64,000 bases of DNA, from contig NZ_FOMS01000014.1 in assembly GCF_900112685.1 (NCBI RefSeq), positions 1-64,000 on the forward strand. Direction: 5' to 3'. The DNA comes from Roseivivax sediminis. Lineage in GTDB: Bacteria > Pseudomonadota > Alphaproteobacteria > Rhodobacterales > Rhodobacteraceae. The notes beneath the pieces are model-generated. The model saw only the letters and a program-made list of their open reading frames with translations, did no database searches and was not told the origin of the DNA. Positions 33,832 through 54,048 of this stretch are shown here, piece after piece; the first letter of the stretch is position 1, and each line of letters starts with the position of its first letter. Both the position numbers and the translations under genes were made by a program.

Positions 33832-34752
33832 TTAGTTTTGCATTATGCCTGACCCTTTCGAGAGGCCAGGATTTTTTCCATAATTTTGGCCTGATGTTCC
33901 ATCGAGTGTGTCGGCCATGATGCCCTTAGTTTGTGTTCCTAGGGATTTGAAATCAGGTTCCAACGTCGCAGGCGGAGATGTTTCATTTCGCATCTCGCTT
34001 CTCACTGTCTCTGCGAGATGACGAGCCTCAGCCTTCGGAAGACGAGTCGCGATGGAGGATGCTAGGGGACCGTCATGCCAGTATGAAAGCGCTACTCCGT
34101 AACGTTCGTCTTCGACAATTGTTCCGGGCCGGTCCTCCCAGCGGGGAGCAAGAAACAGTGTGAATGAGCGGCCGTCTTGAGCCACGTAGTCCAGTGCGAC
34201 GATGCGGGCGTCTTTGTCGTGAACCGCACGTTTATCGATCAACTGGAAGCCCTCGGATGACAAGTCGGGTGCGGATAGCCGGATGGCGACATCTTCCTGC
34301 AACCATCCAATCGCATGTTGTGCGCCGGAAGAGGTCGGCGTGAGCGGAGAGTTCGCATGTTCCGGGGGGTGTGCGGTAAACTGTCGGTAGCTTTCATCCA
34401 ACAGGGCCTGGCCTGAAGAATCCACTTCTCGTTGGCTACCTGCCCACCATCCGCCCAAAGCTGCCGTGGAAATCAGCACGCTCGCCACGGCTCTACGGAA
34501 CCACGGACGAGACCGCTCGTCATTTTCCTCGATTAGCCTGGAGAAGCGCTCGGGAACGGCTTCAGCGATGATGCCGGAATGGGCGGCACGAAGGGCAGCC
34601 GTTTGCGCGCGATAGTCTTTCAAACGAAGCGATGCTTGATTGTCACTTTCTACGAGTGCCTCCACCTCGGCCTTCCTGGCCGGGTCATGGTCCAGAAACC
34701 CGTCGGCAAGCGCCAGGAGGTCCAATTCCTCAATGTTGTCATGGTTTGTCAT
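33832..34752 (-). CDS. Membrane anti-sigma factor for the adjacent ECF sigma factor
   Basis: A 306-residue protein. The N-terminal ~80 residues (LDLLALADGFLDHDPARKAE, VPERFSRLIEEND) look like a cytoplasmic anti-sigma domain of the RskA/FecR type. One transmembrane helix follows (FRRAVASVLISTAALGGWWA, ~93-112). The rest is periplasmic, with WLQEDVAIRLSAPDLSSEGF and SFTLFLAPRWEDRPGT. It begins one base after the sigma factor stop, the normal sigma/anti-sigma arrangement. Such proteins hold the sigma factor until proteolysis or a signal releases it. Confidence 0.75.
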   Translation of the reverse strand: MTNHDNIEELDLLALADGFLDHDPARKAEVEALVESDNQASLRLKDYRAQTAALRAAHSGIIAEAVPERFSRLIEENDERSRPWFRRAVASVLISTAALGGWWAGSQREVDSSGQALLDESYRQFTAHPPEHANSPLTPTSSGAQHAIGWLQEDVAIRLSAPDLSSEGFQLIDKRAVHDKDARIVALDYVAQDGRSFTLFLAPRWEDRPGTIVEDERYGVALSYWHDGPLASSIATRLPKAEARHLAETVRSEMRNETSPPATLEPDFKSLGTQTKGIMADTLDGTSGQNYGKNPGLSKGSGIMQN

Positions 34753-34753
34753 G

Positions 34754-35257
34754 TCATTTGACCTGCCGAAGATGGGGTTCGCTGGTATCAAAGGTCTCGC
34801 GCAGGCGCTCCCGGCCGCGTGAAAGTCGTGAGCGCAGAGTACCTATGGGGATAGAAAGGACCGCGGCAGCCTCGTCGTAGCTCAACCCTTCGATCGCGGT
34901 GAGGGCGATGGCAGCACGCTGCTCGACGGGGAGATCCTGCATCGCATTCACGATGTCCCGCTGAGCCAGCTGGGTCTCGGGTGTCCCTGTGTCGGCAAGT
35001 TCCGGGGCATCATTCAGGTCTACTTCGTGTGCCCGTCGCCAGCGTTGTGTACGTTGGTTCAGAAAAACGCGGTAAAGTATCTTGTAGAGCCACCCACGCA
35101 AGCTGCCTTTGCGGCGCCACAGATGGCGCTTGCGGATCGCCCGCTCAAGCGTGTCCTGAACCAAGTCGTCCGCCAGGACCGGGTCCCGGGTCAGTGCCAG
35201 CGCATAGCGGCGTAAACGCGGGATTTCACGCGCGATGAGCCATTTGGTTTCCTGCAT
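34754..35257 (-). CDS. ECF-type RNA polymerase sigma factor
   Basis: A 167-residue sigma-70 family protein. Region 2 spans ~8-70 (LRRYALALTRDPVLADDLVQ, DTLERAIRKRHLWRRKGSLR, GWLYKILYRVFLNQRTQRWR). Region 4 spans ~105-155 (LPVEQRAAIALTAIEGLSYD, EAAAVLSIPIGTLRSRLSRG). ATG 35257 has AAGGGGCGAG directly upstream; a GTG at 35281 is less likely. The gene shares a bidirectional promoter region with the DUF4168 gene, and both starts carry the same GGAACTTT-N15-GTC element, so it is very probably autoregulated. Confidence 0.9.
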   Translation of the reverse strand: MQETKWLIAREIPRLRRYALALTRDPVLADDLVQDTLERAIRKRHLWRRKGSLRGWLYKILYRVFLNQRTQRWRRAHEVDLNDAPELADTGTPETQLAQRDIVNAMQDLPVEQRAAIALTAIEGLSYDEAAAVLSIPIGTLRSRLSRGRERLRETFDTSEPHLRQVK

Positions 35258-35290
35258 CTCGCCCCTTGGACTGTCGGTCACAGCTTACGT

Positions 35291-35441: not shown

Positions 35442-35846
35442 ATGTTTTTCGCACGGAAAGCAAAAGTAACTCTTACCGCATACGGCTTGATCGTGGCGGG
35501 CGCGATGACACCGGTTGCAGTGGCGGCCAACGAAGCTGGCTCCGGTAATCCGCCGCTGATCCCGGTTCAAGCAACCACCTTCGACCAGGAGACAATCGAT
35601 GCGTTTGCGGCCGCGCGCACACGGGTCGATGAAATCCGCTCCACATATCTGCCTCAGTTTCAGCAAGCTCAAACTGAAGCAGAGCAGCAGAAGATCAATC
35701 AACAAGCCACCCAGGAGATGGCGGAAGCAGTCGAGGCCACGCCGAACATCACCATTGAAGAATATGATGCCGTCGTCAGAGCGGTGCGCGAGGACCCAAA
35801 CCTCTCGGATCGTATCGATGAAGCGATGGCAGAACCGGACATCTGA
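35442..35846 (+). CDS. Exported DUF4168-domain protein, predicted target of the ECF sigma factor
   Basis: A 134-residue periplasmic protein with a signal peptide (residues ~1-28, AYGLIVAGAMTPVAVAANEA). A helical DUF4168 domain follows: FDQETIDAFAAARTRVDEIR, QAQTEAEQQKINQQATQEMA and the conserved ending ITIEEYDAVVRAVREDPNLS. Function is unknown; the family is often stress-linked. GGAGAA precedes the ATG. Divergent from the ECF operon and sharing its promoter pattern, so probably an envelope-stress output gene. Confidence 0.8.
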   Translation: MFFARKAKVTLTAYGLIVAGAMTPVAVAANEAGSGNPPLIPVQATTFDQETIDAFAAARTRVDEIRSTYLPQFQQAQTEAEQQKINQQATQEMAEAVEATPNITIEEYDAVVRAVREDPNLSDRIDEAMAEPDI

Positions 35847-36363: not shown

Positions 36364-37953
36364 TTACTGCGCCGGTCGTATTTCGGTTTGGCTCATCTTT
36401 GGTTCGCGGGGTAGCGCACGGCGGCGTAGGTAGACCTTCCACAGCTCGGTGTCTGTCTCGAGCCGGAAATTCTCCTCGAGATGCGCGCCGTAGATTTCAA
36501 GCATCAGTTTGGTGGTCCCCCCGGCGACCGGGCGCTTGGGGACCATCACGACGTTGACGCCGCCCATGACCTCTTCGGCGGGAAAATGGTTCTCCGCGTC
36601 GAAGTTGCGCCCGTTATGCATCCACGCCGGGCCGCCGTCGGGCGGTGCGATCCCGAGGAGCGACGAAAAGGGGCTGACGAAGTCGAAAACCAGCACCCGG
36701 CTCGGCGCGACCTCGAGCGTCCGGAGAAGCCGCGCGCCGGCGTCGAGGGACTCGACGTAGCGCGCGTAGAAGGCGAATTGCCCTGCATTGGTGGTGTTCA
36801 TCACGCGCAGGCCTTGGCCGTTCGGTGTCTCAAGCGCAATGCCGGAGCGGGTCGCCGCCGCGGCGGCGTGCAGGCCGAGTGCCCCGGCCGAGGACACCCC
36901 GATGGGCAGAAGCAAGAGGATCGCGGCGAGCGGCGCGCCGCGCGTGACCGCGTCCGCGAACAAGCCCATCCGGGGCCGCGCGCTCCGCGCGAGGGTCTCG
37001 GCCGCGACGGCGGCGCCGACGAGGAGGCTGACGATCCCTTCGGTCTGGAAGTTCTGGCTGAGAAGCATCAGTCCCGCCGCGATGCAGAAGCCGTAGAACA
37101 GAGCGTCCGTGACACTCGGGCGGATCCACAAAGCGACCGCCGCGAACGCGAGGAAGAGGACATACTCGCCGGAGGTCTCGAGCGCCGAGCGCACGTAGGA
37201 CATGGCCGATCGGCCGCCGCTCGTCTGCGTCGCGACGATCAGGTCCCCGATATGGATTCGGGTGCCGCCCCAGGCCAGCTCGGCAAGGCCGACGCCAACG
37301 AGCCCGCCAAGGATCGCCAGCATCGCAAAGCGTCGCCCCCCCGGCTGCAGCAGGAGCATCAGCAGAAACCCGGCCGCCACCACGCCGTAGGTCGCCTTGG
37401 TATAGCCGGCTAGAAGCGCGAGCATAGTCGCCGCGGCCGCGTCCAGTGCCGTCTGGCGACGGGTCGGGCGCTCCGGCCGGAGAAAGAGGATCAGCAGCAA
37501 TGCCAGCAACGCCCAGCCGATCCGGTTGTAGTACATCGCGAAGGACACGCGGCTGAACGCCTCCCCGGTGTTCATGGGCGTCGCGAGGAGCAGCATGACG
37601 AAGATCGCAACCGGCACGCCGATCAGGGGCCGCATCCGCGACCCGATCACGTGGATGGCGATCGGCGCGATGACCAGAATGAGAAGCGACATGCCGACCG
37701 GCATGGCGAGGCCGAGCGAGCCCGACAGCCAGTATCCGGCGCCGGGAATGTAGAACGAGAGCGGCCCGAGCGCCGTGCTGAAATCGATGTTCGGAACCTG
37801 TCCGTGGACCACCCGGTAGCCGCCGTCGAGAAAGATCAGCAGGTCGTTGAAGTACATCGACGACACCGTGACCCCGGGCAGGATCAGCAACGCACAGCAA
37901 AGCGCCGTGGTCAGAAGCACCGCCAGCGGAACCGGCCGGGTGACGGCGCTCAT
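36364..37953 (-). CDS. Polytopic GT-C-like membrane protein, candidate arabinosyltransferase
   Basis: A 529-residue inner-membrane protein with ~11 predicted helices (for example VLLTTALCCALLILPGVTV, MSLLILVIAPIAIHVIG) and a C-terminal soluble domain of ~150 residues. The first periplasmic loop contains NDLLIFLDGGYRVVHGQVPN with acidic residues where GT-C enzymes keep their catalytic Asp. I cannot match it to a named family. It is the last gene of the HAD-UbiA/GtrA/DprE1/DprE2 operon, in the slot taken by aftA (Rv3792) in mycobacteria. A role in transferring arabinose from polyprenyl phosphate is therefore a reasonable inference, not shown by motifs. Confidence 0.6.
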   Translation of the reverse strand: MSAVTRPVPLAVLLTTALCCALLILPGVTVSSMYFNDLLIFLDGGYRVVHGQVPNIDFSTALGPLSFYIPGAGYWLSGSLGLAMPVGMSLLILVIAPIAIHVIGSRMRPLIGVPVAIFVMLLLATPMNTGEAFSRVSFAMYYNRIGWALLALLLILFLRPERPTRRQTALDAAAATMLALLAGYTKATYGVVAAGFLLMLLLQPGGRRFAMLAILGGLVGVGLAELAWGGTRIHIGDLIVATQTSGGRSAMSYVRSALETSGEYVLFLAFAAVALWIRPSVTDALFYGFCIAAGLMLLSQNFQTEGIVSLLVGAAVAAETLARSARPRMGLFADAVTRGAPLAAILLLLPIGVSSAGALGLHAAAAATRSGIALETPNGQGLRVMNTTNAGQFAFYARYVESLDAGARLLRTLEVAPSRVLVFDFVSPFSSLLGIAPPDGGPAWMHNGRNFDAENHFPAEEVMGGVNVVMVPKRPVAGGTTKLMLEIYGAHLEENFRLETDTELWKVYLRRRALPREPKMSQTEIRPAQ

Positions 37954-37963
37954 GCCACGATCC

Positions 37964-38713
37964 TCACAGCTTGAGCTTCTTGAAGATCGCCTCGGGAATG
38001 GCGCGGATGATCAGCATCACCAGCCGCCATCGGCGCAGGACATAGACGACGTCGCGCGGGCGATCCTCGAGCGCGACGATGCGCTCGGCCACCGTGGCGG
38101 GCGCGGCGGTCAACGGGCCGGGCAGGTCCATGCCCTCGGTCATGCGTGTGCGCACAAAGCCGGGCTTGACGGTCGCGACGTGCACGCCGCTCTTGGCGAG
38201 ACGGTTGCGCAGACCCGACAGGTAGGCGGTGAACCCGGCCTTGCCCGCGCCATAGACGTAGTTGGTGGCGCGCCCGCGGTCACCTGCGACGGAACTGATG
38301 CCGACGATGAGCCCGCGTCCTCGCGCCGCAAAACGGCCCGCCACGGCTTCGAGCAGGAGCGCGGGGCCCTCGAAATTCGTGCGCAGCACCTCGGCGGCGT
38401 GGGCCGGGTCGCGCTCGGCGCGGGCCTGCTCTCCCATCGCGCCGACGACACAGACGACGGTGTCGGGCAGGGTGGGCAGGGCATCGAGGAAGCCGGGAAA
38501 CGCGTCGGTTTCGAGGATGTCGAGCGTGCGGGTCTCGACCCGCGCGCCCTCGTGACGCGCGTTCAGATCGGCGGCCTCGCGGTCGGCCGCCTCCGGATTA
38601 CGAGCGGCGAGCGTGACGTGCCAGCCCCGGGCGGCGTAGGCCGAGGCCACGGCCCGTCCGATATCCGAGGTGCCGCCCACGAGGAGGACCGATTTCGCCG
38701 GTGCGTCGCTCAT
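37964..38713 (-). CDS. DprE2-like SDR, decaprenylphosphoryl-2-keto-ribose reductase type
   Basis: A 249-residue short-chain dehydrogenase. The nucleotide-binding motif is LVGGTSDIGRAVASAYAARG (~10-29), the catalytic Ser is in GISSVAGD and the Tyr/Lys in YVYGAGKAGFTAYLSGLRNR. The C-terminal RPRDVVYVLRRWRLVMLIIR and AIPEAIFKKLKL match the membrane-facing tail of DprE2-type reductases. In the DprE1/DprE2 pair it reduces the 2-keto intermediate to polyprenyl-phosphoryl-arabinose with NADH. It overlaps the DprE1-like gene by four bases (ATGA) and is 10 bases before the GT-C-like gene. Confidence 0.85.
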   Translation of the reverse strand: MSDAPAKSVLLVGGTSDIGRAVASAYAARGWHVTLAARNPEAADREAADLNARHEGARVETRTLDILETDAFPGFLDALPTLPDTVVCVVGAMGEQARAERDPAHAAEVLRTNFEGPALLLEAVAGRFAARGRGLIVGISSVAGDRGRATNYVYGAGKAGFTAYLSGLRNRLAKSGVHVATVKPGFVRTRMTEGMDLPGPLTAAPATVAERIVALEDRPRDVVYVLRRWRLVMLIIRAIPEAIFKKLKL

Positions 38714-40035
38714 AACCCGAGCCTTTCCGATTGCTTGGAGGACATGTGCCCGAGGGCGCCCGCGTCGCGGCGCACCTCGTGAAACGCGGCGATGTTGGGA
38801 TACCCGGCCTCGAAGGTCTCACGCGACTGGCAGGCGTCCTTGGCCAGATAGAGACGCCCTCCCGCCTCGGAGACGAGACCGTCGATCTCGGCCAGAAGCG
38901 CGAGCCCCCGTTCGCTGACGGGGATGTCGAGCGCGAGCGTCAGCCCGTCCATCGGGAAGGACATGAGGCCCGTTCCGGCGCGCAGCCGCTTCAGCACCGC
39001 GAGGAACGACCCCGTGCCGGTCTGCGACAGCCGTTCGAGAATGATGGACAGCACCGCTTCGGCCCGCTCTTCGGGGATCACGCATTGATGCTGAACGAAA
39101 CCGCGCGGCCCGTAGATGCGGTTCCACCGGGCGATGCCATCGAGCGGAAAGAAATAGCTGTCCCACGGCACGAGCGACGTCTGTCCGGCTCGCAGCGCGC
39201 CCTTGCGGTAGTAGAGCGCATTGAACGCCGACACGGTCTTGGCGTTCAAAAGCCCGCTGGGCATGTCGAAGGGAACGCTCACGCGGCCGGCTCGCGCGGG
39301 CGGGAAGGGCGCTTGCCGTGGTCCGAGCTCGTCGCGCGCCGCGTGCCCACCTTCGAGGATGAGCGACCGGCCGAGCGCGGCCCCGCGCGCCAGCACATCG
39401 ATCCACGCAACGGTGTAGGTGGCGCCCGACGTCCGGCTGAGAAGTCCGATGGCGTCCGACAGGTTGTTGGCAACGCTGGTGGTCTGGCGGATCCAGCCGG
39501 TGTCGACCCGGCGCAGGCGAAAGGACGCGTCGAGGATCGTGCCGGTCAGGCCCATCCCACCGATGGTGGCGTGAAAGAGGTCCGTGTTCTGGTCCCTGGC
39601 ACAGCGGACTGTACGCCCGTCGGGCAGCGCCAGGGTGAACGCCTCCACATGTTCGCCGAAGGTGCCATCGTTATGTTGGTTCTTGCCGTGCACGTCCGAC
39701 GCGATCATGCCGCCGACGGTCACGAAGCGCGTGCCAGGGACGACCGGGGGAAAGAACCCGCGCGGCACGAACGTGGTCAGGATATCGTCGAGGCTGACAG
39801 CTGCCTCGGCCCGCAGGAGGCCGGTGTCGGGATCGAACCCCTGCAGCCGGTCGAGACCGGCGGGGGCGAGCGTGCGGTCGCGCCCGATGGCCGCGTCGCC
39901 GTAAGCCCGGCCCAAACCGCGTGCCACGACCCCCGGTGCGGCCGCGGTCAGCCGCGCCGCCGACGCAGCTGTCAAGGCGGTCGTCAAAGGCCCGAACAGC
40001 CGGGGATAACGGCCCCACCCGCTGAGGTCCTTCAT
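38710..40035 (-). CDS. DprE1-like FAD-dependent decaprenylphosphoryl-ribose 2'-oxidase
   Basis: A 441-residue VAO-type flavoenzyme. It starts LSGWGRYPRLFGPL, then RGLGRAYGDAAIGRDRTL (FAD pyrophosphate loop), PGTRFVTVGGMIASDVHGKN followed by QHNDGTFGEHVEAFTLALPD (the DprE1-type GGxIAxDVHGKNHH region), and the substrate domain with FFPLDGIARWNRIYGPRGFV and a lysine-containing YLAKDA near the end. DprE1 oxidises polyprenyl-phosphoryl-ribose at C2', the first half of epimerisation to arabinose. Adjacent to a DprE2-like gene and a GtrA gene in Rv3789-3791 order, so the assignment is well supported. Confidence 0.87.
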   Translation of the reverse strand: MKDLSGWGRYPRLFGPLTTALTAASAARLTAAAPGVVARGLGRAYGDAAIGRDRTLAPAGLDRLQGFDPDTGLLRAEAAVSLDDILTTFVPRGFFPPVVPGTRFVTVGGMIASDVHGKNQHNDGTFGEHVEAFTLALPDGRTVRCARDQNTDLFHATIGGMGLTGTILDASFRLRRVDTGWIRQTTSVANNLSDAIGLLSRTSGATYTVAWIDVLARGAALGRSLILEGGHAARDELGPRQAPFPPARAGRVSVPFDMPSGLLNAKTVSAFNALYYRKGALRAGQTSLVPWDSYFFPLDGIARWNRIYGPRGFVQHQCVIPEERAEAVLSIILERLSQTGTGSFLAVLKRLRAGTGLMSFPMDGLTLALDIPVSERGLALLAEIDGLVSEAGGRLYLAKDACQSRETFEAGYPNIAAFHEVRRDAGALGHMSSKQSERLGL

Positions 40036-40469
40036 ACCGTCGCCTCGCAAAACACCATGCGGCGATCGAGCATGTACTTGACCACGTAGCCGATGCCGAG
40101 GCCCAGGACAGCGCCCGCATACTTGGCAAAATCCGTACCCCAGATCGCGTAGAAGCCGAGTTCGAAGCCCCAGAAGATCACCGTGGTCAGAACGCTGAAA
40201 AGGCCCGACAGCGTGATCCGCCACGCCTCGGCGGCCGGCGTGATGTAGGGCTCGCGGAAGGTCCAGGTCTTGTCGATGACGTGCTTCACGAGAAAGCCCA
40301 CGCCGGTGCCAATAATGATCGACACCATCAGTGGCGCGCTCGGCGCTGCCCGCACCACCGCCTCCTGTGCCGCGAGGTTGGTCGCGACGCAGATGACGGC
40401 CGCTGCAGCGTAGCGCACGAACGGTTGCGCATCACGCAGCCTGCGTTGTGGGAACGACGACCGCGTCAT
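40032..40469 (-). CDS. GtrA-family small membrane protein
   Basis: A 145-residue protein with four helices: FVRYAAAAVICVATNLAAQE, SIIIGTGVGFLVKHVIDKTW, a third segment, and YAGAVLGLGIGYVVKYMLDR. It matches GtrA/DPMS-type proteins, proposed flippases or scaffolds for polyprenyl-phosphate sugars. The mycobacterial homologue Rv3789 is next to dprE1 and was linked to polyprenyl-phosphoryl-arabinose handling or AftA recruitment. Four-base overlap with the DprE1-like gene, one-base gap after the UbiA gene. Confidence 0.85.
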   Translation of the reverse strand: MTRSSFPQRRLRDAQPFVRYAAAAVICVATNLAAQEAVVRAAPSAPLMVSIIIGTGVGFLVKHVIDKTWTFREPYITPAAEAWRITLSGLFSVLTTVIFWGFELGFYAIWGTDFAKYAGAVLGLGIGYVVKYMLDRRMVFCEATV

Positions 40470-40470
40470 G

Positions 40471-42018
40471 TCAGATCGCGGCGATGAAGACGCCGAGCAT
40501 TGCGATCCCCGTGATCCGGCTCTGCGGATCCTTGATCGCGAAGAGCACCGGGTCGTCGGCCATTTGCCGCCTCTGTGCGAGGATCAGCGCCCGGCCAATC
40601 CAGTAGGTCAGGATCGGGCACACGAGCAGCAGAAGCTCCGGCCGGCTGTAGAGCGTGCTGACCGAACTGCCCGAAACGTAGAGCGCGAGCACCGTGACCG
40701 CGTTGAACCCCGCCGCTGCCGAGAGCGCTGCGAGCATGCCGAGATCGAGCGTTTCGTAGTCGCGATTGGTGGGAGAGGGCTTATTGGCGTCCACGAGGGC
40801 GGCGAGCTCGGTAAAGCGCTTCATCAGCGCCAGCGAGACGAAGATCGACAGCGAGAAGACAATGAGCCACGAGGACATCGCGATGCCTACGGCCACCGCG
40901 CCGCCGAGCATCCGGATCGTGTAAAGTCCGGCGAGTGTCAGGACGTCGATCAGCAGGATGCGTTTCAGCACGAAGCTGTAGGCCGTCGTGGTCGCGAAGT
41001 AGATCGCGAGCACCAGTGCGAAGGTCGGCGAAATGGCGAGGGAGATCGTCGCCGCCGTCAGCAGGAGTACGGGGATCGCTGCGACCGCGTGCGCGACCGA
41101 CAGATCGCCCCGTGCGAGCGGACGGTTGCACTTGGAGTGATGCGCCCGGTCCTCCTGCAGGTCCACGAGGTCGTTCAGGATGTAGCAGGCCGATGCTGCC
41201 ATGCAGAACGCAAGCGCGGCGAGGCTCGCGAGGGCGACATTCTCGAAGGTGAGCGCGTGCCCGGCGATCATCGGCACGAACACGAGCACGTTCTTGGCGT
41301 ATTGATGGACCCGGAACTGACGGGCCCAGATCGAAACGCCGGGAGTCGGTTGATCGATCAGCGTGGCATCTCCCGAAACCTCGCCCATTCGCGCGGTGAC
41401 CCGGCGGGAAGTCCGTACGGCGAAGGCGCGCCGCGCCGCCTGCCAGACCGGCAGGTCCGCGGCCTCGTTGCCGATGTAGTCGAACCGGCCCACACCGAAA
41501 CGCTCCCGCAGCCGCGCCGCCTTGGCCGGACCCGTCAGGTTGGTGTCGCCCTCCGTGGCGAACCAGCCGTCGAAGACATCGAGGTGTTCGGCGATGGCGG
41601 AGACGAAGTCCGCGTGCGATCCGGACGCAAGGTAAACGGGCCGCCTGGCAAGCCGCGCCCGGCGCGCAAGCGCGAGCACGTCGTGGTCGTAGGGCAGGGT
41701 GGCTGGGTCGACACGCACCACGCCCGCTAGGTGCGCTTTCAGCGCGGCCTTGCCATGCCGCGCCGCGCGCAGCAGTGCCAGAGCCTGCAGCGGCGCGCTC
41801 CCGGCGTGCCGCAACGACGTTTCGACCAAGAGATCCGAGCGTAGCAGCGTGCCATCGAGGTCGATAACGAGCGGCACGTTGGGTGCGGACGCAAGATCAA
41901 TAGCCTCGGATGGGAGGCAAACGACATCGGCCGGCGCTCCCGCGGACTTGTCGAAAGGATTTTGCGGTGGCTCGGCCGGGGCGGGCACGGCACGTGTCAC
42001 GTTCGGATCCGACGTCAT
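40471..42018 (-). CDS. HAD phosphatase fused to UbiA prenyltransferase, DPPR-synthase type
   Basis: A 515-residue fusion. The N-terminal HAD domain (~45-230) has VIDLDGTLLRSDLLVETSL (nucleophile DxD), YLASGSHADFVSAIA and FGVGRFDYIGNEAADLPVW. The C-terminal UbiA domain (~240-515) has nine helices, LNDLVDLQEDRAHHSKCNRP (the NDxxDxxxD Mg/pyrophosphate motif, in the form seen in decaprenyl-phosphate 5-phosphoribosyltransferase Rv3806c) and TNRDYETLD. UbiA of this type adds phosphoribose from PRPP to polyprenyl phosphate. The fused HAD could remove the 5-phosphate, which needs a separate enzyme in mycobacteria; that is inference. First gene of the operon; ATG 42018. Confidence 0.85.
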   Translation of the reverse strand: MTSDPNVTRAVPAPAEPPQNPFDKSAGAPADVVCLPSEAIDLASAPNVPLVIDLDGTLLRSDLLVETSLRHAGSAPLQALALLRAARHGKAALKAHLAGVVRVDPATLPYDHDVLALARRARLARRPVYLASGSHADFVSAIAEHLDVFDGWFATEGDTNLTGPAKAARLRERFGVGRFDYIGNEAADLPVWQAARRAFAVRTSRRVTARMGEVSGDATLIDQPTPGVSIWARQFRVHQYAKNVLVFVPMIAGHALTFENVALASLAALAFCMAASACYILNDLVDLQEDRAHHSKCNRPLARGDLSVAHAVAAIPVLLLTAATISLAISPTFALVLAIYFATTTAYSFVLKRILLIDVLTLAGLYTIRMLGGAVAVGIAMSSWLIVFSLSIFVSLALMKRFTELAALVDANKPSPTNRDYETLDLGMLAALSAAAGFNAVTVLALYVSGSSVSTLYSRPELLLLVCPILTYWIGRALILAQRRQMADDPVLFAIKDPQSRITGIAMLGVFIAAI

Positions 42019-42505
42019 TCTCGTTGTGCTCCTATCGGGACGCCGTGCAGGTGTACCGCCTCGGCACCGCCGACGGACGCCGTACGACGCGGGCGGTGCG
42101 TTCGAGAGCGGCACTGATTCAGAGTGGCTCGGCGCCAAAACATGTCCTGAAAACTAGCAATAGGACGCCGGGTTCCTGGAGGCCTCTGCCGTGCGGCAAG
42201 AACGCGCCAGTCTCGCCGCCGATCGGCAAAAATCCGATTATATTGGGATATACTGCGTCCTTGACGGCAGAATTCCGCGCTCGCGCCTCTGGATTATCGG
42301 CAGGTGGCACCATCTCATTCAATGTCATAATCGGATCCTGCGAGCCGAATCCTTCTTTGGCGACACCACGGGATTCTGGTTGCATGCGATCGTCCGGTCG
42401 CGGGGATACACCCGTGATGCGGCACGGCGAGCGCGAAACGGTTGGAAGGCATGCAGACACCGTGTGATGACAAACCCATGTGATGACAAACATGCTGTTC
42501 ATCGG
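42019..42505. other. Divergent promoter region of the two glycan operons
   Basis: ~490 bases between the UbiA-led operon and the AsmA-like gene. It contains an imperfect dyad (GATTATATTGGGATATACTG, ~42236-42255) and a direct repeat of GTGATGACAAAC at ~42464 and ~42479 just before the AsmA start. No gene is supported; an in-frame upstream extension of the AsmA gene is non-homologous. Confidence 0.45.
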
Positions 42506-44320
42506 ATGCGTCGACTGGTGATTGCCGGTCTCGTCGTGGTGTCGATCGTTGCGGCAGCCGCTGTCGCGGTCTATTTCACACTGCCTTCCGCGGTCCCCGA
42601 GCGCGTCGTGCGCGCGCAGCTCGAGGCGCATTTCGAGGAGCTGAGCGACGGCGCAGTCACGATTGGACGGCACGAGGGCGTGTCGCTGCATCCTGGCGGG
42701 CGCGTGCAGATTGCAGGCCCGGAATTCGTGCCGACCGTGGTCGCCCCCGCACGGTGGAGCGGGCGGGCCGAGGCCATCGAAGCAACGCTGCGGCTCGCGC
42801 CGCTCTTTGCCGGCCGGGTCGAGATCGTCCGGCCGCGCATCGTTCGCCCGGAAATCACGCTGACCGGCCGCACTCGCCTGCAACCCTCGCAGGTCAAGGC
42901 CGCGGCGGCGTTTGGGCTCGGCGACCCGAACAAGGCACTCGAGGTGACAGAAGGGACGATCCACTATGACGACGGCAGCGCGCGGCAGGTGATCCTGACC
43001 GGGCTCGACCTGCGCGTAGCGGGGACCGAGCCACCGGGTGGCGTTGCCGTCACTTCCAGCTTCGATGCCGGGGCGGTGCACGTCGACGCCGACCTCGCGC
43101 TCGAAGATCTGCGGCTGCTCGGGACGTCCGGCGGCAGCCCCGGCCGCATATCCCTCGACGTCGCAGCGGCGGGCCGGGCCGGCGAGTTGCCGGCGGAACT
43201 ACGCGATCTCGCCGCGAGCGGCGATATCGCTACGCTGTTCCGCAAGCTGGGCGCCGGAATCGGTCTGCCATCGCTCACCCGCATGGACGCTGAAGGCCGG
43301 ATCTCGATGACGCCGTCGGCCGTCGCCCTCGAGGACGCGACCTTCTCGGTCGGCGGCATATCGCTCGACGGTCGGGCCAGGGCCGCCGTTGCGCCGGACC
43401 AATCGCTCCTGCCGCGGTTGCGCGCACTGCAGGACGATGCCGAGCGGGCCATCGCCAGGGGTCGTGCCACGATGGAAAACGACGACTGGGTCTCCGTGTC
43501 GATCGGCACCGACTGGCTGTCGCAGGTGGTGTTCGATTTCGAGCTGTCAGGGCAGGACCTGTCCGCCTCCGGCCTCACCTTCGAGCAGGCCGCGCTGGAA
43601 CTGTCGGTCGGGGAGGGCGCCGCGAGGCTTCTTTTCGACGGCGCGAGTGAAGCGTTCGGCACGTTCCGTACTCTCGCGACCCTGAGCGCGGCGGACGCGG
43701 CGGCTCACCTCGATCTGTCGAGCCAGATCGCGGGTCTGTCGCTTGATAAGACCGTGGAACTCGTCACCCGATTCGCTACGGATCCGCTCGTCGGGACGCC
43801 TCAACGGCCCGGAGGGCGGCTGGACGCCGTGGTGCGGGCGGAGGCCACGGGCCGCACCTTGGGCGATCTTGTCGCTTCTCTGACCGGCAGCGCCTCGGCC
43901 CATGTCGCGGACGGCAGCCTGTCGGGCGGCAACGTCATCGCGACTCTCGACTCACTGGCGGAGGGGCGCGAATTCATGACCGAGGACAAGGGGCCGTTGA
44001 TCCCCTCTGCCGGGCGCACGCCGTTTGACACGATCGACATGCAGCTCGACTTCGCAGCGGGCGCCGCCGATCTTTCGCGCCTGACCATCGCTGGCGATCG
44101 ATACCGCATCGACATGGATGGCGCGATCGGGCTTCGGAGCGGCACTGCAGAGGTCGAGGGCAACGCCATCCTCTTCAGCGAGGCGGAACCGGAGCCGGCT
44201 GAGCAGGTGGTCGACCTGCCCTTCGGCGTCGGTGGCACGCTTCTGGCCCCGGTGATCGCGGCCGGGGTGCCGACCGTGGCGGCCAACCTCACCCGGACGA
44301 ATGCCGGGGAGGAGGAGTGA
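42506..44320 (+). CDS. AsmA-family protein (bridge-like lipid transfer type)
   Basis: A 604-residue protein with an N-terminal anchor (MRRLVIAGLVVVSIVAAAAV, then AVYFTLPSAVPERVV) followed by beta-rich periplasmic repeats. AsmA features are LRLAPLFAGRVEIVRPRIVR, PEITL, and the C-terminal block ATGRTLGDLVASLTGSASAH, VADGSLSGGNVIATLDSLAE, TPFDTIDMQLDFAAGAADLS. AsmA proteins form grooves that move lipids toward the outer membrane. An ATG at 42467 in the same frame would add 13 residues. First gene of the plus-strand glycan operon, 7 bases before the GT-C gene. Confidence 0.82.
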   Translation: MRRLVIAGLVVVSIVAAAAVAVYFTLPSAVPERVVRAQLEAHFEELSDGAVTIGRHEGVSLHPGGRVQIAGPEFVPTVVAPARWSGRAEAIEATLRLAPLFAGRVEIVRPRIVRPEITLTGRTRLQPSQVKAAAAFGLGDPNKALEVTEGTIHYDDGSARQVILTGLDLRVAGTEPPGGVAVTSSFDAGAVHVDADLALEDLRLLGTSGGSPGRISLDVAAAGRAGELPAELRDLAASGDIATLFRKLGAGIGLPSLTRMDAEGRISMTPSAVALEDATFSVGGISLDGRARAAVAPDQSLLPRLRALQDDAERAIARGRATMENDDWVSVSIGTDWLSQVVFDFELSGQDLSASGLTFEQAALELSVGEGAARLLFDGASEAFGTFRTLATLSAADAAAHLDLSSQIAGLSLDKTVELVTRFATDPLVGTPQRPGGRLDAVVRAEATGRTLGDLVASLTGSASAHVADGSLSGGNVIATLDSLAEGREFMTEDKGPLIPSAGRTPFDTIDMQLDFAAGAADLSRLTIAGDRYRIDMDGAIGLRSGTAEVEGNAILFSEAEPEPAEQVVDLPFGVGGTLLAPVIAAGVPTVAANLTRTNAGEEE

Positions 44321-44327
44321 TGTGGCA

Positions 44328-45860
44328 ATGTACGTAGAGGGCGTGGCATCCCTGTCGCGCGCGGGCGCATCGAGCGACGTGCGCAACCGCCGTCTGATCG
44401 CGTTCGGGATACTCGCGTTCTGGTTGGTCTACTACGGCGGCTGTCAGTTTCCGGGGTTGGGCGGAGAGCTGAATGCCGGGGACTCAGCCAAATTCCAGAC
44501 GCTCGGGCACACCTCGATCCTCGTTCATGGGCCGGGCTATCCGCTCGTCCTGCTGCTCGGGACGCTCGTGCGCGCGCTGTCGCTCCCGGTCGAACCCTGG
44601 TGGGCGATGACCTTCGCCATGGCGTCCTTGCCGGGCGCAATCGCCAACACGATGGCGTTCCTCATCGTGGCGCGGCTGACCCGCAGCCGGCTGTTCGCTC
44701 TCGCCGCGGCGATGCTGCTGGGAAGCGCCGGCCTGATGGCGGTGCAGGCGACCGAGGCCGAGGTCTATCCGCTGGCGCTCTGCTTCATCCTCTCGGTGAC
44801 CTACCTGCTGCTAAGCTTCGTCGACACCAAGAACCCGCGCTGGTTCATCGCCGCGGTCGCGGTCTATGCGCTGTCCTTCGGCAATCACCTGATGATGATA
44901 ATGCTGGCGCCCGTGGGCCTCTGGGTAATGATCGCGCACCATCGCCTGCTTGTGCGGCTTCGCGTCATCGCGGCGATGGTGGGCCTTCTGATGCTCGGGG
45001 CGTGCCAGTATCTCTATCTCTACTGGGTCACGCACCAGCCGAGCACCGCCTATTCCGAGTACATGCCCCTGCCGCCCACGGTCGGGGAGCTGATCGACTA
45101 TATCCGGGGCACCTATTTCGGGGATCTTTACGGCTCGGGCCTCTCTTCGCCGCAAACGCGAGAGGTTCTGCTCGACACGTTGTCGTATGCGCATCCCAAC
45201 GTCTCTGGGCCGCTGATGCTCTCCGGCCTCGCGATCCTCGTGCTGGGGTGGCGCCGCCGCGACGCCGGCTGGACCGGGCTCGCGCTTGTTTTCGGCGTGG
45301 CCTTCGCCTTCGTCCCGTTCATGCTGTGGTACGGCGCCTACGACATCCGCGCCTTTCACCTGCCGGTGCTCGGCCCGCTCCTTGTCGCGTCGGTCGCCGC
45401 GATCGGCTGGCGGCTTGCGTCTATGCCGCGGGTGCACGCCGTCGTCGGGCTGATCCTCCTGGCGTTCGCCGTGGTGCGCACGGGGGGGGTCGCGACGGAG
45501 CTGCGCGCCCGGGAGGCGCCGTTCGACGGCATGATGTCCGCCTTGGACGCGGCGGTGGCGCAGGCGCCGGTCGAGAACCCGCTGGTGTCGATGACCTACT
45601 ACGAGCGCATGGTGACGCTCTATCACGAGCTCCTCGGGCAGGCGCCTGCGCCGGCCGAGTACCGCGTGACCTGGCGCACACAGGATGAGGTCGAACGCCG
45701 CGACGTCGTGGGGGGCATTGTGTTTCCCACCGACGGGGGACAGTTTCTTCGCTGGGTCGAGCACCGCCGGCCCGACCTGAGCTGCACCGCGATCCCGCTC
45801 GATCAGCCCTCGGCACCGAATTGGCCGGCCGAAGGATTTCTGTGCTGTCCGAACGAGTGA
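44328..45860 (+). CDS. DUF2723 GT-C-like membrane protein, candidate glycosyltransferase
   Basis: A 510-residue protein with ~11 helices. The first loop carries LNAGDSAKFQTLGHTSILVH then GPGYPLVLLLG, matching the DUF2723 motif DSGE/KF...HPPGYPL. QATEAEVYPLALCFILSVTY (QSxxAEVYxL) follows, then GNHLMMIMLAPVGLWVM (xxHLxxxLxxPA). DUF2723 proteins are related to protein O-mannosyltransferases and use polyprenyl-phosphate sugars. GGAGGAG is at 44311-44317; a GTG at 44322 is a possible earlier start. Its position opposite a polyprenyl-phosphoryl-arabinose pathway makes an arabinosyltransferase role attractive but unproven. Confidence 0.75.
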   Translation: MYVEGVASLSRAGASSDVRNRRLIAFGILAFWLVYYGGCQFPGLGGELNAGDSAKFQTLGHTSILVHGPGYPLVLLLGTLVRALSLPVEPWWAMTFAMASLPGAIANTMAFLIVARLTRSRLFALAAAMLLGSAGLMAVQATEAEVYPLALCFILSVTYLLLSFVDTKNPRWFIAAVAVYALSFGNHLMMIMLAPVGLWVMIAHHRLLVRLRVIAAMVGLLMLGACQYLYLYWVTHQPSTAYSEYMPLPPTVGELIDYIRGTYFGDLYGSGLSSPQTREVLLDTLSYAHPNVSGPLMLSGLAILVLGWRRRDAGWTGLALVFGVAFAFVPFMLWYGAYDIRAFHLPVLGPLLVASVAAIGWRLASMPRVHAVVGLILLAFAVVRTGGVATELRAREAPFDGMMSALDAAVAQAPVENPLVSMTYYERMVTLYHELLGQAPAPAEYRVTWRTQDEVERRDVVGGIVFPTDGGQFLRWVEHRRPDLSCTAIPLDQPSAPNWPAEGFLCCPNE

Positions 45861-46091
45861 CCGGCAGCATCCCGGGCATCGGCGCTCCAAACACCCGCGT
45901 GCCGGACAATAGGCGGCAGAGATCTGCCGAACGTGGGTGATCCGCGACATTCCGACACATTCCGGTCGCTCCACTTGATCGAAATCTCGGCCCGGTGCAT
46001 GCCTGACGAGGCTGTTTTTCCTGACAGTTCCGGCCGGGATGGGCGCTTCGCATTTCGGCATGAATTCGCTTTCCTGTCAGAGGATGTCTTC

Positions 46092-47282
46092 GTGCGCGTC
46101 GCGTTGTCTCTTGCCGTAACCTTTCTGAGCATCGCTAGCCTTGCCCACGCCGCGCCGCCGGTCTTCGACGTCACCGTGCCGGATCTTGCACGGGCCGAAA
46201 CCGCAATGAGCGCGGACGTCCCGCGGGACGAGCTCGATGCACCCCATCCCGACACGAGCCTTGCCGGCGCGCTCGTGGTGGGCGCGACCGAACTCGTGCG
46301 CCAGCTGACCGGCGCCGCCTCACACAACGACACCGCCGCGCGCTGGAACGTGCACGGCACGGACCTTGGCCACATGTTCCGCCACGACGGCGCGCTCTAC
46401 ATGGTGTTCGGTGACACCTACGGCGCAGACGGAGGCGACTGGCGCAGCAACACGATGGCCCGGATCGACGATCCCGATCCCGCCGGCGGGCTGCCCTTCG
46501 CGGCGATGATCGCGGAGACCACGGGTGCGGCGAAGGAACTGGTGCGCTCCGCCAAGATCCCCGGCCACGAATGGACGGTGATCCCGACGAACGGCATCTC
46601 TGTCGCGGGGCAGATGGTTCTGCACTACATGTCGGTGCGGTTCTGGGGCGCGGACGACCAGTGGTTCGTGCGCCGCTCCGGCCTCGCGTTTTCGGACGAT
46701 CACGGTCAGTCCTGGACGAAATCCGACCGGGCGATCTGGGCCTCGGGGCTTGGCTTCGAGCAGGTGGCCTATGCCGAGCACGACGGCATGATCTACGTTT
46801 TCGGTATCCCGCAGGGGCGCTACGGCGCGGTGCGGCTCGGTCGCGTGGCGCCCGAAAGCCTGCTGGATCCGGCCGCCTACAGCTATTGGGACGGTGCCGC
46901 GTGGAGCCACGAGATCACGCGCTCGGCCCCTGTCGTGCCCGCCCCGGCCGGGGAACTCTCGGTCGCCTGGAGCGAAACCCATGGGCGCTGGCTGATGCTC
47001 TACTTCGAACCGGCCCGGGCCGAGATCGTGCTCCGCACCGCCCCCGCGCCGACCGGGCCGTGGAGCGCGGCACAGCGCGTCGTCTCCTCTGCCGACTACC
47101 CGGGGCTTTATGCGCCCTACATCGTGCCCATCGACGATATCGGAGACTCGCTCTATTTCACGATGTCCATGTGGAAGCCGGTCTACAACGTCTTCCTGAT
47201 GAAGACGACGCTCGAGGGCGGGGCCGGCGTGATGGCCACCAACGACGTGCCGACCGAGGCCCTGCTGCCCGCCACGGAGTGA
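46092..47282 (+). CDS. DUF4185 protein, GH183 endo-D-arabinanase type
   Basis: A 396-residue exported protein. GTG 46092 with AGAGGA 8 bases upstream gives a clean signal peptide (MRVALSLAVTFLSIASLAHA). The DUF4185 five-bladed propeller features are RWNVHGTDLGHMFRHDGALY, MVFGDTYGADGGDWRSNTMA, GLAFSDDHGQSWTKSDRAIW, MIYVFGIPQGRYGAVRLGRV, and PYIVPIDDIGDSLYFTMSMW at the end. Members of this family were shown to be endo-D-arabinanases and grouped as GH183. Located beside a D-arabinose-lipid pathway, it could trim the same glycan during assembly or release. Confidence 0.82.
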   Translation: MRVALSLAVTFLSIASLAHAAPPVFDVTVPDLARAETAMSADVPRDELDAPHPDTSLAGALVVGATELVRQLTGAASHNDTAARWNVHGTDLGHMFRHDGALYMVFGDTYGADGGDWRSNTMARIDDPDPAGGLPFAAMIAETTGAAKELVRSAKIPGHEWTVIPTNGISVAGQMVLHYMSVRFWGADDQWFVRRSGLAFSDDHGQSWTKSDRAIWASGLGFEQVAYAEHDGMIYVFGIPQGRYGAVRLGRVAPESLLDPAAYSYWDGAAWSHEITRSAPVVPAPAGELSVAWSETHGRWLMLYFEPARAEIVLRTAPAPTGPWSAAQRVVSSADYPGLYAPYIVPIDDIGDSLYFTMSMWKPVYNVFLMKTTLEGGAGVMATNDVPTEALLPATE

Positions 47283-47424
47283 GGCCGCCAGCCACCAAAT
47301 GAGTGGAAATCTGCCGGCCGGCTCCCGTTTCTGGCACGATGACGCTTGTCAGCGCGGGGGCGCGGGAACCGCGACGCCACCTCTGGCGTAACGTGCATGA
47401 CCCAGGGTCATTTATGAGGTTGCC

Positions 47425-47688
47425 GTGCGTCCCCATGTGTCAAAACCTCTCCGGTTCGTCGCCCTGCCGATCGCGGTCGGCGCAGCCTGTCTTCCCGTCT
47501 CCGCCCAAGCCTATGTCGGCCCGGGCGCGAGCCTGACCGCGATCGGCATGCTGATCGCGCTCGTCGCGGCCATCCTGCTCGCGCTTGTCGGGTTCGTCTG
47601 GTACCCGATGAAGCGCGTGATGAGGAACCGCGCGGACCGGCAGGACGCCCGGACCATGGGCGCTAGCGACGAGCGACGCCGCGAGTGA
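47425..47688 (+). CDS. Small exported/inner-membrane protein of the glycan operon
   Basis: An 87-residue protein from GTG 47425. It has a signal-like N-terminus ending SAQA, then YVGPGASLTAIGMLIALVAA and ILLALVGFVWYPMKRVMRNR: one helix with a short YVGPGA periplasmic lead and a basic cytoplasmic tail. I recall the YVGPGAGL-helix-WYPxKR layout from other glycan and sulfotransferase loci, but no function is known. It overlaps the sulfotransferase gene by four bases (GTGA). Confidence 0.65.
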   Translation: MRPHVSKPLRFVALPIAVGAACLPVSAQAYVGPGASLTAIGMLIALVAAILLALVGFVWYPMKRVMRNRADRQDARTMGASDERRRE

Positions 47689-49181
47689 TCATCGCGGCCC
47701 TTTTGCTGGGGCTGATCGCGTTCGTCGGCGTCCTGCGGAGCCTGCGCGCCGAAGTTGTCGCGCGCCGGGTCGTGGCAACCGCGCAGGAGGCGTTGCAGGT
47801 CATCAGCAACCCCGACCTCTCCGACATCGAAAAGGAGAGGAAGGTGCGGCACGCTTCCATCTCTCTCTTCGGACAGTTCCTGGCGATCGCCGGCATCGGC
47901 TTGGCCTCGTTCAGCGCCGCGGCGGCCCTCGTCTGGGGGGGTGCGAAGGCCGGTCTCTACGGTCTCGGCACAGCGATGTCGGTGGCGATGGACTGGCCCT
48001 TCCTGCTCGGCTCGACACTCGCCGCCATCGCGCTCTGGCTGGCGCTCGACCGGATTGGAGGACGGCGCGAGGCCGCGCCCACGGAAACAGGCGAGGTGCC
48101 GTACGGACCGATGGAGCAGGCCCTCCACAATTTCGCTTTCGCCTCGCCCGTCCGGCAGCGCAGGCTCGGCGCGCTCGAGACCTATCTCTATCGCAGCCGC
48201 ATCGACCACAGCCGCGCCACGCGGCCCGTGTTCGTCACCTCGCTGCCCCGCGCAGGGACAACGATCATGTTGAACTTGCTCGCGGAGACCCCCGAGTTCG
48301 CCTCGGCGACCTACCGGCACATGCCGTTCACGCTCGCGCCGCTTCTCTGGGGGCGCATCGTGCCAATGATCCAGAAAACCGCCGCGCGCACGGAACGCGC
48401 GCATGGCGACGGGATCGAGGTTTCGGGCGACAGTCCTGAGGCGTTCGAGGAAATGCTCTGGATGGCGTTCTGGCCGGATCACTACCGCCCCGACCGGATC
48501 GAGACCTGGAGCGCTCGGGAGAACGACGCGGCCTTCGCGCAATCCTTCCGTACCCATATGGCCAAGATCGTCGCATCGAAACCCGGTGCCAGCCGCTACG
48601 TGTCGAAGAACAACGCAAACATCGCGCGCCTGCCGCTGCTCGACACGATCTGCCCTGACGCCGCGATCGTGATTCCGGTTCGGGATCCGCGGGCGCAGGT
48701 CGTGTCGCTTATGCGCCAGCACGAGCGCTTTCTCAACCTGCATGCGCGCGAGCCGTTCGGGCGCCGTTACATGGAGGGTGTCGGGCATTTCGAGTTTGGG
48801 CAGGCGCTGCGTCCCATCGCGTTCGGCGGAACGACCCCGGATATCGAGACGGCGACCGGCCCGGATTTCTGGCTGCGCTACTGGATCAGCGCCTACGAGC
48901 ACGTGCTGGCGACGGCCGGACGGAACGCCGTCTTTGTCGACCACGACGCGCTTTGCGCCGCGCCGCACGAGACCCTGCCGGTTCTGGCAGAGGCCATCGG
49001 CGCCGATTCGAAGGCAGACATCGTTGGCCGCGCCTCGATCTTCCGTGCACCCGGGCCGCCGCTCGAGCTCGACGGCGCCAGCCCGCCGCTGCTGGCGTGC
49101 GCACGGGCGGTGCATGCCGCGCTTCTGGACCGCGCGCTCGCACCGTCGGCGTCGCGCTATCGCAAGGAGGTCACGGTATGA
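47685..49181 (+). CDS. Membrane-anchored PAPS-dependent sulfotransferase family protein
   Basis: A 498-residue protein. The first ~125 residues hold three hydrophobic segments (IIAALLLGLIAFVGVL, ISLFGQFLAIAGIGLASFSA, DWPFLLGSTLAAIALWLALD). The sulfotransferase domain begins with the 5'-phosphate loop VFVTSLPRAGTTIMLNLLAE (~185-204). The 3'-phosphate part is SKNNANIARLPLLDTICPDA followed by IVIPVRDPRAQVVSLMRQHE (R-D-P as in the family). It would move sulfate from PAPS to a sugar hydroxyl. Overlaps its neighbours at both ends (GTGA, ATGA), so it works with the glycan genes. Confidence 0.85.
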   Translation: MIIAALLLGLIAFVGVLRSLRAEVVARRVVATAQEALQVISNPDLSDIEKERKVRHASISLFGQFLAIAGIGLASFSAAAALVWGGAKAGLYGLGTAMSVAMDWPFLLGSTLAAIALWLALDRIGGRREAAPTETGEVPYGPMEQALHNFAFASPVRQRRLGALETYLYRSRIDHSRATRPVFVTSLPRAGTTIMLNLLAETPEFASATYRHMPFTLAPLLWGRIVPMIQKTAARTERAHGDGIEVSGDSPEAFEEMLWMAFWPDHYRPDRIETWSARENDAAFAQSFRTHMAKIVASKPGASRYVSKNNANIARLPLLDTICPDAAIVIPVRDPRAQVVSLMRQHERFLNLHAREPFGRRYMEGVGHFEFGQALRPIAFGGTTPDIETATGPDFWLRYWISAYEHVLATAGRNAVFVDHDALCAAPHETLPVLAEAIGADSKADIVGRASIFRAPGPPLELDGASPPLLACARAVHAALLDRALAPSASRYRKEVTV

Positions 49182-54012: not shown

Positions 54013-54048
54013 CAGCCGCTGATCCCAGACAGTGAAAAGGATACGACC

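Follow-up and report, generated by a model that had tools for sequence, protein, structure and literature searches.

Two divergent arms at the locus

The stretch of DNA analysed here (the window) comprises the first 64,000 nucleotides of contig NZ_FOMS01000014.1 of Roseivivax sediminis, a member of the Rhodobacterales whose genome (assembly GCF_900112685.1) amounts to 4.62 Mb in 37 contigs, and it carries a two-armed locus with a predicted pathway for a lipid-linked D-arabinofuranose (D-Araf) donor. One arm is a five-gene operon on the minus strand (42018-36364 by open reading frame (ORF) calls), whose genes encode, in order, a HAD-UbiA fusion, a GtrA family protein, a DprE1-like oxidase, a DprE2-like short-chain dehydrogenase/reductase (SDR), and a polytopic protein resembling glycosyltransferases of the C fold (GT-C), here called GTC1. 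The second, divergent arm (42467-50491, plus strand) faces the operon and encodes an AsmA-like protein, a second GT-C-like protein (GTC2), a DUF4185 protein of glycoside hydrolase family 183 (GH183), a small membrane protein, a sulfotransferase, and an arylsulfotransferase-like protein, in this order, with the GH183 gene about 4 kb from the donor operon. The 448 bases between the two arms (42019-42466) are presumed, from their position alone, to be the promoter region. A first-pass annotation of this DNA had described the five-gene arm as a Mycobacterium-style operon. The five genes, their strand, the 4-base overlaps (GtrA/DprE1-like and DprE1-like/DprE2-like) and the gaps (1 base for UbiA/GtrA, 10 bases for DprE2-like/GTC1) were borne out by the ORF calls, and the motifs that it had listed, NDLVDLQED in UbiA, DVHGKNQH in the oxidase, and YGAGK in the reductase, are present. 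It missed the HAD domain of the UbiA protein. It also missed the divergent arm, which is better evidence than the likeness of the operon.

The first gene of the operon (40471-42018, minus strand, with an ATG at 42018 and a possible TTG start at 42138) encodes a predicted polyprenyl-phosphate phosphoribosyltransferase with an N-terminal HAD domain resembling a phosphoribose phosphatase. It matched PF01040 with 80.7 bits and the generic UbiA model NF006088 with 578.8 bits (cut-off 351) over residues 84-555, a match that spans the HAD and UbiA parts; the HAD part alone scored weakly in Pfam (19.4 bits, cut-off 27). The HAD aspartate pair was kept in 48 of 49 rows, and the N-D-D-D motif of UbiA and the second aspartate in all 49 (in all residue counts, identical proteins make up one row, and no partial or stop-containing matches are included). 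The sole PDB matches, 8j8j and 8j8k, are of decaprenyl-phosphate phosphoribosyltransferase. The same fusion of phosphatase before synthase occurs in Citrobacter ORF15, which was shown to make polyprenyl-phosphoryl-ribofuranose (PMC11127046; all papers given by PMC number are cited from excerpts, and statements about them extend to those excerpts). The second gene (40032-40469, minus strand) encodes a GtrA family protein, a predicted flippase for a lipid-linked sugar, that exceeded the cut-offs of PF04138 (50.8 bits) and NF037976 (138.1 bits, cut-off 50); Rv3789 is a proposed flippase (PMC11127046).

The third gene (38710-40035, minus strand) encodes a DprE1-like flavin adenine dinucleotide (FAD) oxidase, a predicted polyprenyl-phosphoryl-ribose 2'-oxidase as judged from NF053785, the PDB, and its residues. 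It scored 390.8 bits against the DprE1 model NF053785, with the next family at 33.0 bits, and matched DprE1 in the PDB (4aut) at 4e-77, with the next kind, cytokinin dehydrogenase, at 7.5e-7. The equivalents of Mycobacterium tuberculosis DprE1 Tyr60, His132, Lys134, Gln334, Gln336, and Lys367 were kept in 68 of 68 oxidase rows and that of Lys418 in 67 (one gap); we take these seven positions, numbered by way of the alignment, to be FAD-site or catalytic. The equivalent of Cys387, presumably the cysteine of DprE1 bound by benzothiazinones, is alanine in the window oxidase and in 66 of the 68 rows overall, and therefore the benzothiazinone sensitivity proposed in the first-pass annotation would be a poor test. 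The fourth gene (37964-38713, minus strand) encodes a DprE2-like SDR, a predicted 2-keto reductase on the basis of NF053786, PRK07102, the PDB, and its residues. Its best PDB match was mycobacterial DprE2 (21gq_C, 4.8e-33; the next at 3.3e-19), and its catalytic Tyr and Lys were kept in 65 of 65 rows. A grouping of the flavoenzyme and the SDR with sugar-alcohol oxidases or other SDRs, which the first-pass annotation had named as a refuting outcome, was not found when profile and structure-sequence searches were run, as the scores above indicate. A sugar or lactone oxidase in place of DprE1 was rejected, with 33 bits against 390.8.

From the biochemistry of these families, the donor is very likely polyprenyl-phosphoryl-D-arabinofuranose, and the kept residues together with the score gap to other families suggest that the oxidase works as DprE1 does. 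The first-pass proposal of a lipid-linked D-Araf donor made from phosphoribosyl pyrophosphate (PRPP) is upheld in this respect by the families, the PDB matches, the residues, and the GH183 neighbour, and the donor reading gains independent support from the last of these because a gene of that family adjoins; the surface glycan that the donor was said to serve was not supported. When the DprE1, DprE2, and DPPR (decaprenyl-phosphoryl-5-phosphoribose) synthase models were run, all three were matched below their curated cut-offs, and this counts against the reading: the HAD-UbiA protein scored 151 bits against NF008977 (cut-off 234), the SDR 196.5 bits against NF053786 (cut-off 250), and the DprE1 equivalog cut-off of 500, missed by the oxidase, was reached by 0 of 244 Rhodobacterales genomes (this sample, like that of 387 Alphaproteobacteria used below, was an even draw from a larger group, with completeness of at least 90%). 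The SDR was fitted better by the unnamed model PRK07102 (346.2 bits, above the cut-off of 267), and the genes of a relative carry generic annotation names, which also counts against the reading. The labels DprE1-like and DprE2-like were kept because of the missed cut-offs, and the enzymes are taken to work as in the synthesis of decaprenyl-phosphoryl-D-arabinose. The missed DprE1 and DprE2 cut-offs would also fit a pathway in which UbiA, oxidase, and SDR make another lipid-linked sugar, such as plain ribofuranose or another epimer, and the ribofuranose and xylofuranose donors of Citrobacter share the first step (PMC11127046). However, with the active-site residues of both enzymes kept, with DprE1/E2 homologues going together with Araf-bearing glycans (PMC11127046), and with a GH183 neighbour, such a pathway is most improbable.

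GT-C proteins and the divergent arm

The last gene of the operon (36364-37953, minus strand) encodes GTC1, a polytopic GT-C-like protein that is predicted, from its AlphaFold model and Foldseek, to be a D-Araf transferase of no named family; it had no match in Pfam or NCBIfam. The model, built from 14 sequences, reached a pLDDT (predicted local distance difference test) of 67 and a pTM (predicted template modelling score) of 0.69, and the top three Foldseek matches were AftB, AftD, and AftA (E values 5e-4 to 6e-4; TM scores up to 0.45, AftA having 0.45 by query), followed closely by ArnT and DPY19; the five together span E values of 5e-4 to 8e-4. The model thus points to a probable GT-C fold for GTC1 rather than to membership of any one family. 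In Mycobacterium, the genes of Rv3789-Rv3792 run GtrA, dprE1, dprE2, aftA, and the first-pass annotation had matched the last gene of the operon to aftA by its place in the order; no PDB match at E<=1 bears this out, and GTC1 as an AftA or Emb orthologue was rejected since there was no sequence match. The Emb family (PF04602) had 0 matches in the genome at E<=0.1, while the control, Corynebacterium glutamicum, was matched. A strong GTC1 orthologue was found in 4 of the 244 Rhodobacterales genomes, all 4 with GH183, and another 19 had weak matches only (<=101 bits). GTC2 (44301-45860, plus strand) is a TMEM260/DUF2723-like GT-C protein (PF11028, 50.5 bits, above the cut-off) whose profile matched TMEM260 in the PDB (9rql, E 6e-4); for its model (pLDDT 64), Foldseek placed an oligosaccharyltransferase (OST) first and also found DPY19, ArnT, AftA, and Emb.

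The gene following GTC2 (46089-47282, plus strand; the frame is open from 45933, with a start near 46089 likely by eye) encodes a predicted exported endo-D-arabinanase of the DUF4185/GH183 family. The protein scored 323.1 bits against PF13810 (cut-off 39.5) and matched the endo-alpha-D-arabinanase 8hhv in the PDB at 7.3e-64, and its catalytic aspartate pair, D144 and D161, was present in 16 of 16 rows, aligned with EndoMA1, for which the roles of the catalytic residues have been reported (PMC10509167). From seven tested DUF4185 enzymes, it was concluded that the family consists of endo-D-arabinofuranases (PMC10115798). A lipobox pattern was seen in 6 of 13 GH183 rows and in none of the other 7, the three Roseivivax rows having a signal-like N-terminus by eye; the lipobox is in line with a place in the envelope.

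Conservation of the remaining genes of this arm was followed in 13 loci, here called class A (L005-L016 and L041), which belong to 37 loci found with the oxidase in named genomes. The AsmA-like protein (42467-44320, plus strand) scored 25.2 bits against PF05170, below the cut-off of 29.8, and is present in 12 of the 13. The small membrane protein of 87 amino acids (47425-47688, plus strand), whose gene overlaps the sulfotransferase start by 4 bases, had no Pfam family match; tblastn found it next to the sulfotransferase gene in all 13 class-A loci and also in L098, L099, L101, L102, and L125. The sulfotransferase (47685-49181, plus strand; PF13469, 56.1 bits, above the cut-off) has N-terminal hydrophobic segments by eye and a motif, SLPRAGTT, that is invariant in 16 of 16 rows; by its fold it would be of the 3'-phosphoadenosine-5'-phosphosulfate (PAPS) type. 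The arylsulfotransferase-like protein (49178-50491, plus strand; PF14269, 118.2 bits, above the cut-off), with an N-terminal hydrophobic segment by eye, was matched in 13 of 13 class-A loci and is truncated in 12 of these by the end of the locus. Together with the sulfotransferase, it suggests sulfation.

Distribution of the donor operon and its linkage to the second arm

Of the 244 Rhodobacterales genomes, 91 contain a DprE1-like gene (E<=1e-40). In the 30 such loci that were fetched, a DprE2-like gene is always adjacent, and a span of about 4.3 kb also takes in HAD-UbiA in 27 of them and GtrA in 25. The closest DprE1-like proteins in named genomes are those of Roseivivax jejudonensis (92%) and R. 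halotolerans (87%). The oxidase tree has 65 rows and is midpoint-rooted, with no mycobacterial or outgroup row; left out were loci 47-76 except 67, 72, 75, and 76 (for most of these, a longer stretch from the same genome was used), L003, L086-L089, matches of <380 residues, and L008 and L012, which are the same records as L101 and L102, with identical DprE1, and so are not independent of them. Three groups appeared. Class A comprises 14 rows including the window (support 100/99), and a node of support 100/99 unites it with rows from Bradyrhizobium, Methylobacterium, Pleomorphomonas, and Rhodoblastus. The broad class B (100/98) contains 23 rows, including two that belong to Rhizobium and Phenylobacterium, and class C (100/100), which is distant, contains 6. 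The last is a DprE1/DprE2 clade in Rhodobacterales (L067, L072, L075, L076, L103, and L104), several members of which have a HAD-UbiA match on the opposite strand. A Gram-negative operon of the decaprenyl-phosphoryl-D-arabinose (DPA) type is thus ordinary within Rhodobacterales, and the D-arabinosylation of rhizobial Nod factors (noeCHOP/noeCNHOP) is a published precedent (PMC5080398, PMC2443382). For these two reasons the operon is not specially mycobacterial, and the title that the first-pass annotation had given it was overstated.

Of the 37 loci found with the oxidase, 13 have the five genes in this order, which is therefore not due to chance; this comparison of gene neighbourhoods, which had been proposed as a check, came out in favour of the operon as described. 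The remaining 24 loci had no GTC1 match within the stretch fetched. In 12 of the 13 class-A loci, the ten larger genes of the two arms are all present and in the same order. GH183 was found above its cut-off in 6 of the 244 Rhodobacterales genomes (five at >300 bits, one at 234 bits), and all 6 of these have a DprE1-like gene, against 91 of 244 overall; among the 387 Alphaproteobacteria, the window genome scored 324.6 bits for GH183 and 7 others 19 to 54 bits. In another locus (L099, genome G090), the second arm adjoins a class-B DprE1 operon, and the genome concerned gave no match to GTC1. Taken together, this suggests at least two pairings of the arm with a donor operon. The arm as a general companion of DprE1 operons was rejected: 0 of 20 class-B stretches carried AsmA, GTC2, GH183, sulfotransferase, or arylsulfotransferase-like genes at >=40 bits, these stretches being a non-random set from the upper part of the list of 91 genomes, 12.5 to 19.5 kb each, some of them cut by contig ends. 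The whole cluster is also carried by a Tateyamaria omphalii plasmid, pDOK1-4-1 (NZ_CP019313.1; L125), of 84 kb and typed as non-mobilizable, where it is surrounded by GT61, GT2, ABC-transporter, and aminotransferase genes.

GH183 enzymes are degradative in gene clusters of Microbacterium and Dysgonomonas (PMC10509167, PMC10115798), and the best plasmid match outside Rhodobacterales is actinobacterial (Nocardia, 41.7%), so that the GH183 protein of the window could be an enzyme for scavenging from, or competing with, arabinan-bearing Actinobacteria, placed beside the donor operon by coincidence. We kept this explanation, although GH183 as an unlinked passenger was rejected because the conserved linkage and the second operon pairing speak against it, and we regard it as improbable. 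The arm is linked to the donor operon in 12 of 13 loci and to a second operon clade in L099, and none of the 6 Rhodobacterales genomes with GH183 lacks DprE1. Furthermore, the GH116-type DUF608 partner of degradative clusters had 0 matches in the genome, control genomes being matched; GH172-type DUF2961 also had 0 matches, which is a weak point as no control matched either. Since the usual exo-enzymes were not found with GH183, the trimming of the cell's own glycan is favoured, not proven.

Genes for OpgG/MdoG flank GTC1 in 11 of the 13 class-A loci and are therefore a weak pointer to a periplasmic glucan as the acceptor. They are of two types, about 37% identical and differing in orientation (type 1 in L007, L009, L011-L016, L041, L102, and L125; type 2 in L008, L010, L098, and L101). 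OpgG is not beside GTC1 in the window or in the two other Roseivivax loci, and no OpgH adjoins these OpgG genes in L010 and L125, inspected by eye. Elsewhere in the window genome there are two OpgG genes; both have a gene for an OpgH-like glycosyltransferase as a neighbour, and one of them OpgC as well. At the level of titles, the literature on OpgG and arabinose held nothing evidently on an arabinosylated glucan.

Near the 3' end of the operon lie genes for a sigma factor of the extracytoplasmic function (ECF) type with its presumed anti-sigma partner (which had no Pfam match) and for a DUF4168 protein (33832-35281, minus strand; 35442-35846, plus strand). On the other side (51910-63147, plus strand), Pfam identified a hydantoinase A/B-like pair, two periplasmic binding proteins of the amide/urea type, and an AmiR/ANTAR regulator, after which, by eye, come genes for the membrane and ATPase components of an ABC transporter of the branched-chain type. 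At Rfam gathering scores there was no RNA within the locus; the sole match was a terC RNA (RF03067, 25339-25394, minus strand, 53.2 bits), outside it and just before a SecDF-like gene (by eye) at 25502.

A possible D-arabinofuranose glycan and its relation to known systems

Gene content, gene order, conservation, family matches, and catalytic residues are the observed features from which the following scheme is drawn. The locus probably makes and processes a D-Araf glycan, the chain of which would be trimmed by the cell's own enzyme in the periplasm or envelope. HAD-UbiA would transfer phosphoribose from PRPP to polyprenyl phosphate, probably undecaprenyl phosphate, and its HAD domain would remove the 5-phosphate; the DprE1-like and DprE2-like enzymes would then invert C2 to give polyprenyl-phosphoryl-D-arabinofuranose, which GtrA would flip into the periplasm. 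There, GTC1 would move D-Araf onto an acceptor, probably as a chain of the alpha-1,5 type, short or long, to which GTC2 would perhaps add another residue, and the exported GH183 enzyme would trim the chain. A D-arabinan chain is likely in view of GH183 and of the GT-C fold class. The sulfotransferase and the arylsulfotransferase-like protein may sulfate the chain or its acceptor, and AsmA may help the glycan to travel towards the outer membrane, but the acceptor, the sulfation, and the role of AsmA are guesswork.

Besides the missed cut-offs, several observations weigh against this interpretation. The profile of 14 GTC1 sequences had 0 PDB matches at E<=1 and hence none to AftA or another solved D-Araf transferase, and the GTC1 model is of middling confidence (pLDDT 67, TM <=0.45), with ArnT scores equal to those of AftA. 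No Emb-type polymerase was found, so that the chain may be of any length. In one class-A locus (L015, from a Shimia metagenome-assembled genome), the operon, small protein, sulfotransferase, and arylsulfotransferase-like genes are kept and no AsmA, GTC2, or GH183 lies within its 21 kb. L098 (genome G095) has kept the second arm together with HAD-UbiA and GTC1, but between these last two genes only remnants of GtrA, DprE1, and DprE2 are left (L098 2901-3317); this genome has a class-C DprE1/DprE2 pair elsewhere (L103), a distant pair that might supply the donor there. The GH183 gene of L100 (genome G211; 34% identity) lies about 130 kb from its DprE1, among unrelated neighbours (aldehyde dehydrogenase, DeoC-type aldolase, nucleoside deoxyribosyltransferase, DUF1523, and DUF6638). 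Three other Alphaproteobacteria exceed the GH183 family cut-off of 39.5, at 47 to 54 bits, and an Indioceanicola plasmid has a GH183 match of 29.7% identity. Furthermore, just some GH183 enzymes cut the short D-Araf chains of pilin (PMC10115798).

Some of these points would also be expected if the operon added single D-Araf residues to a glycan, protein, or lipid, in the manner of Nod factors or O-antigens, with GH183 editing short stretches and no polymer being made. Single-residue and side-chain precedents exist in noeCHOP/noeCNHOP (PMC5080398, PMC2443382) and in three-component systems (PMC11127046), the operon has one candidate D-Araf transferase and the genome no Emb family that was found, and L015 is without GH183 in its 21 kb. 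On the other hand, GH183 enzymes are endo-acting, the active site of EndoMA1 holding a linear tetrasaccharide (PMC10509167), and GH183 is kept in 12 of the 13 class-A loci. We therefore consider the addition of single residues unlikely, and a D-Araf chain trimmed in place remains the preferred explanation.

With the mycobacterial DPA pathway (Rv3806c, Rv3807c, DprE1, DprE2, Rv3789, AftA/Emb) the locus shares the UbiA, DprE1, and DprE2 families, a small multispanning protein of flippase type before DprE1, a GT-C-like protein after DprE2, and a GH183 gene in the genome. In contrast, its HAD domain is fused to UbiA whereas the mycobacterial phosphatase Rv3807c is separate, the sequence of its GT-C protein is not that of an AftA, the search for an Emb family gave none, the host is Gram-negative, and the oxidase groups with Rhizobiales oxidases, in a tree without a mycobacterial row. 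In the Pseudomonas system, the acceptor is pilin, and the transferase is TfpW. That system is also Gram-negative, with a DPPR synthase orthologue and D-Araf chains that are cut by some GH183 enzymes (PMC11127046, PMC10115798). The three-component system of Citrobacter youngae (ORF12-15) likewise has a phosphatase-UbiA fusion, a flippase, and a GT-C protein in one locus, although its flippase is of the MATE family instead of GtrA (PMC11127046); GH183, the sulfotransferase, the arylsulfotransferase-like protein, AsmA, and the second GT-C protein are extras of the window. Like the genes here, the rhizobial noeCHOP/noeCNHOP genes serve donor synthesis in Alphaproteobacteria and have homologues in the mycobacterial pathway, but their acceptor is a lipo-chitooligomer, and a GH183 arm is not mentioned for rhizobia in the excerpts (PMC5080398, PMC2443382). 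DUF4185 and both catalytic aspartates are common to the known GH183 endo-D-arabinanases and the window protein, the latter adjoining donor-synthesis genes in Alphaproteobacteria. The hosts of GH183 named in the excerpts are Actinobacteria, Bacteroides, Myxococcus, phages, and a predatory bacterium, in a total of 2225 species that possibly includes others (PMC10115798, PMC10509167).

A more far-reaching and rather doubtful possibility is that roseobacters make a sulfated periplasmic D-arabinan, perhaps on an osmoregulated periplasmic glucan or an exported envelope lipid, with trimming by their own GH183 and with GT-C transferases as yet unnamed, which would be a Gram-negative counterpart of mycobacterial arabinan. 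D-arabinan is commonly seen as a distinguishing feature of mycobacteria and related organisms, and the literature, apart from subscription papers and supplements, yielded nothing on D-arabinan in lipopolysaccharide of Proteobacteria, on DprE1 in Roseobacter, or on lipid-linked arabinofuranose in Rhodobacterales. If the proposed function is correct, a Gram-negative locus that joins a donor pathway, candidate transferases, and a hydrolase would be a safe model for D-Araf transferases and flippases; such a locus might contribute a new family of GT-C enzymes and could serve as a natural supply of D-arabinan. Our results also suggest that GH183 beside a DprE1/E2 operon could mark undescribed D-Araf glycans in genomes.

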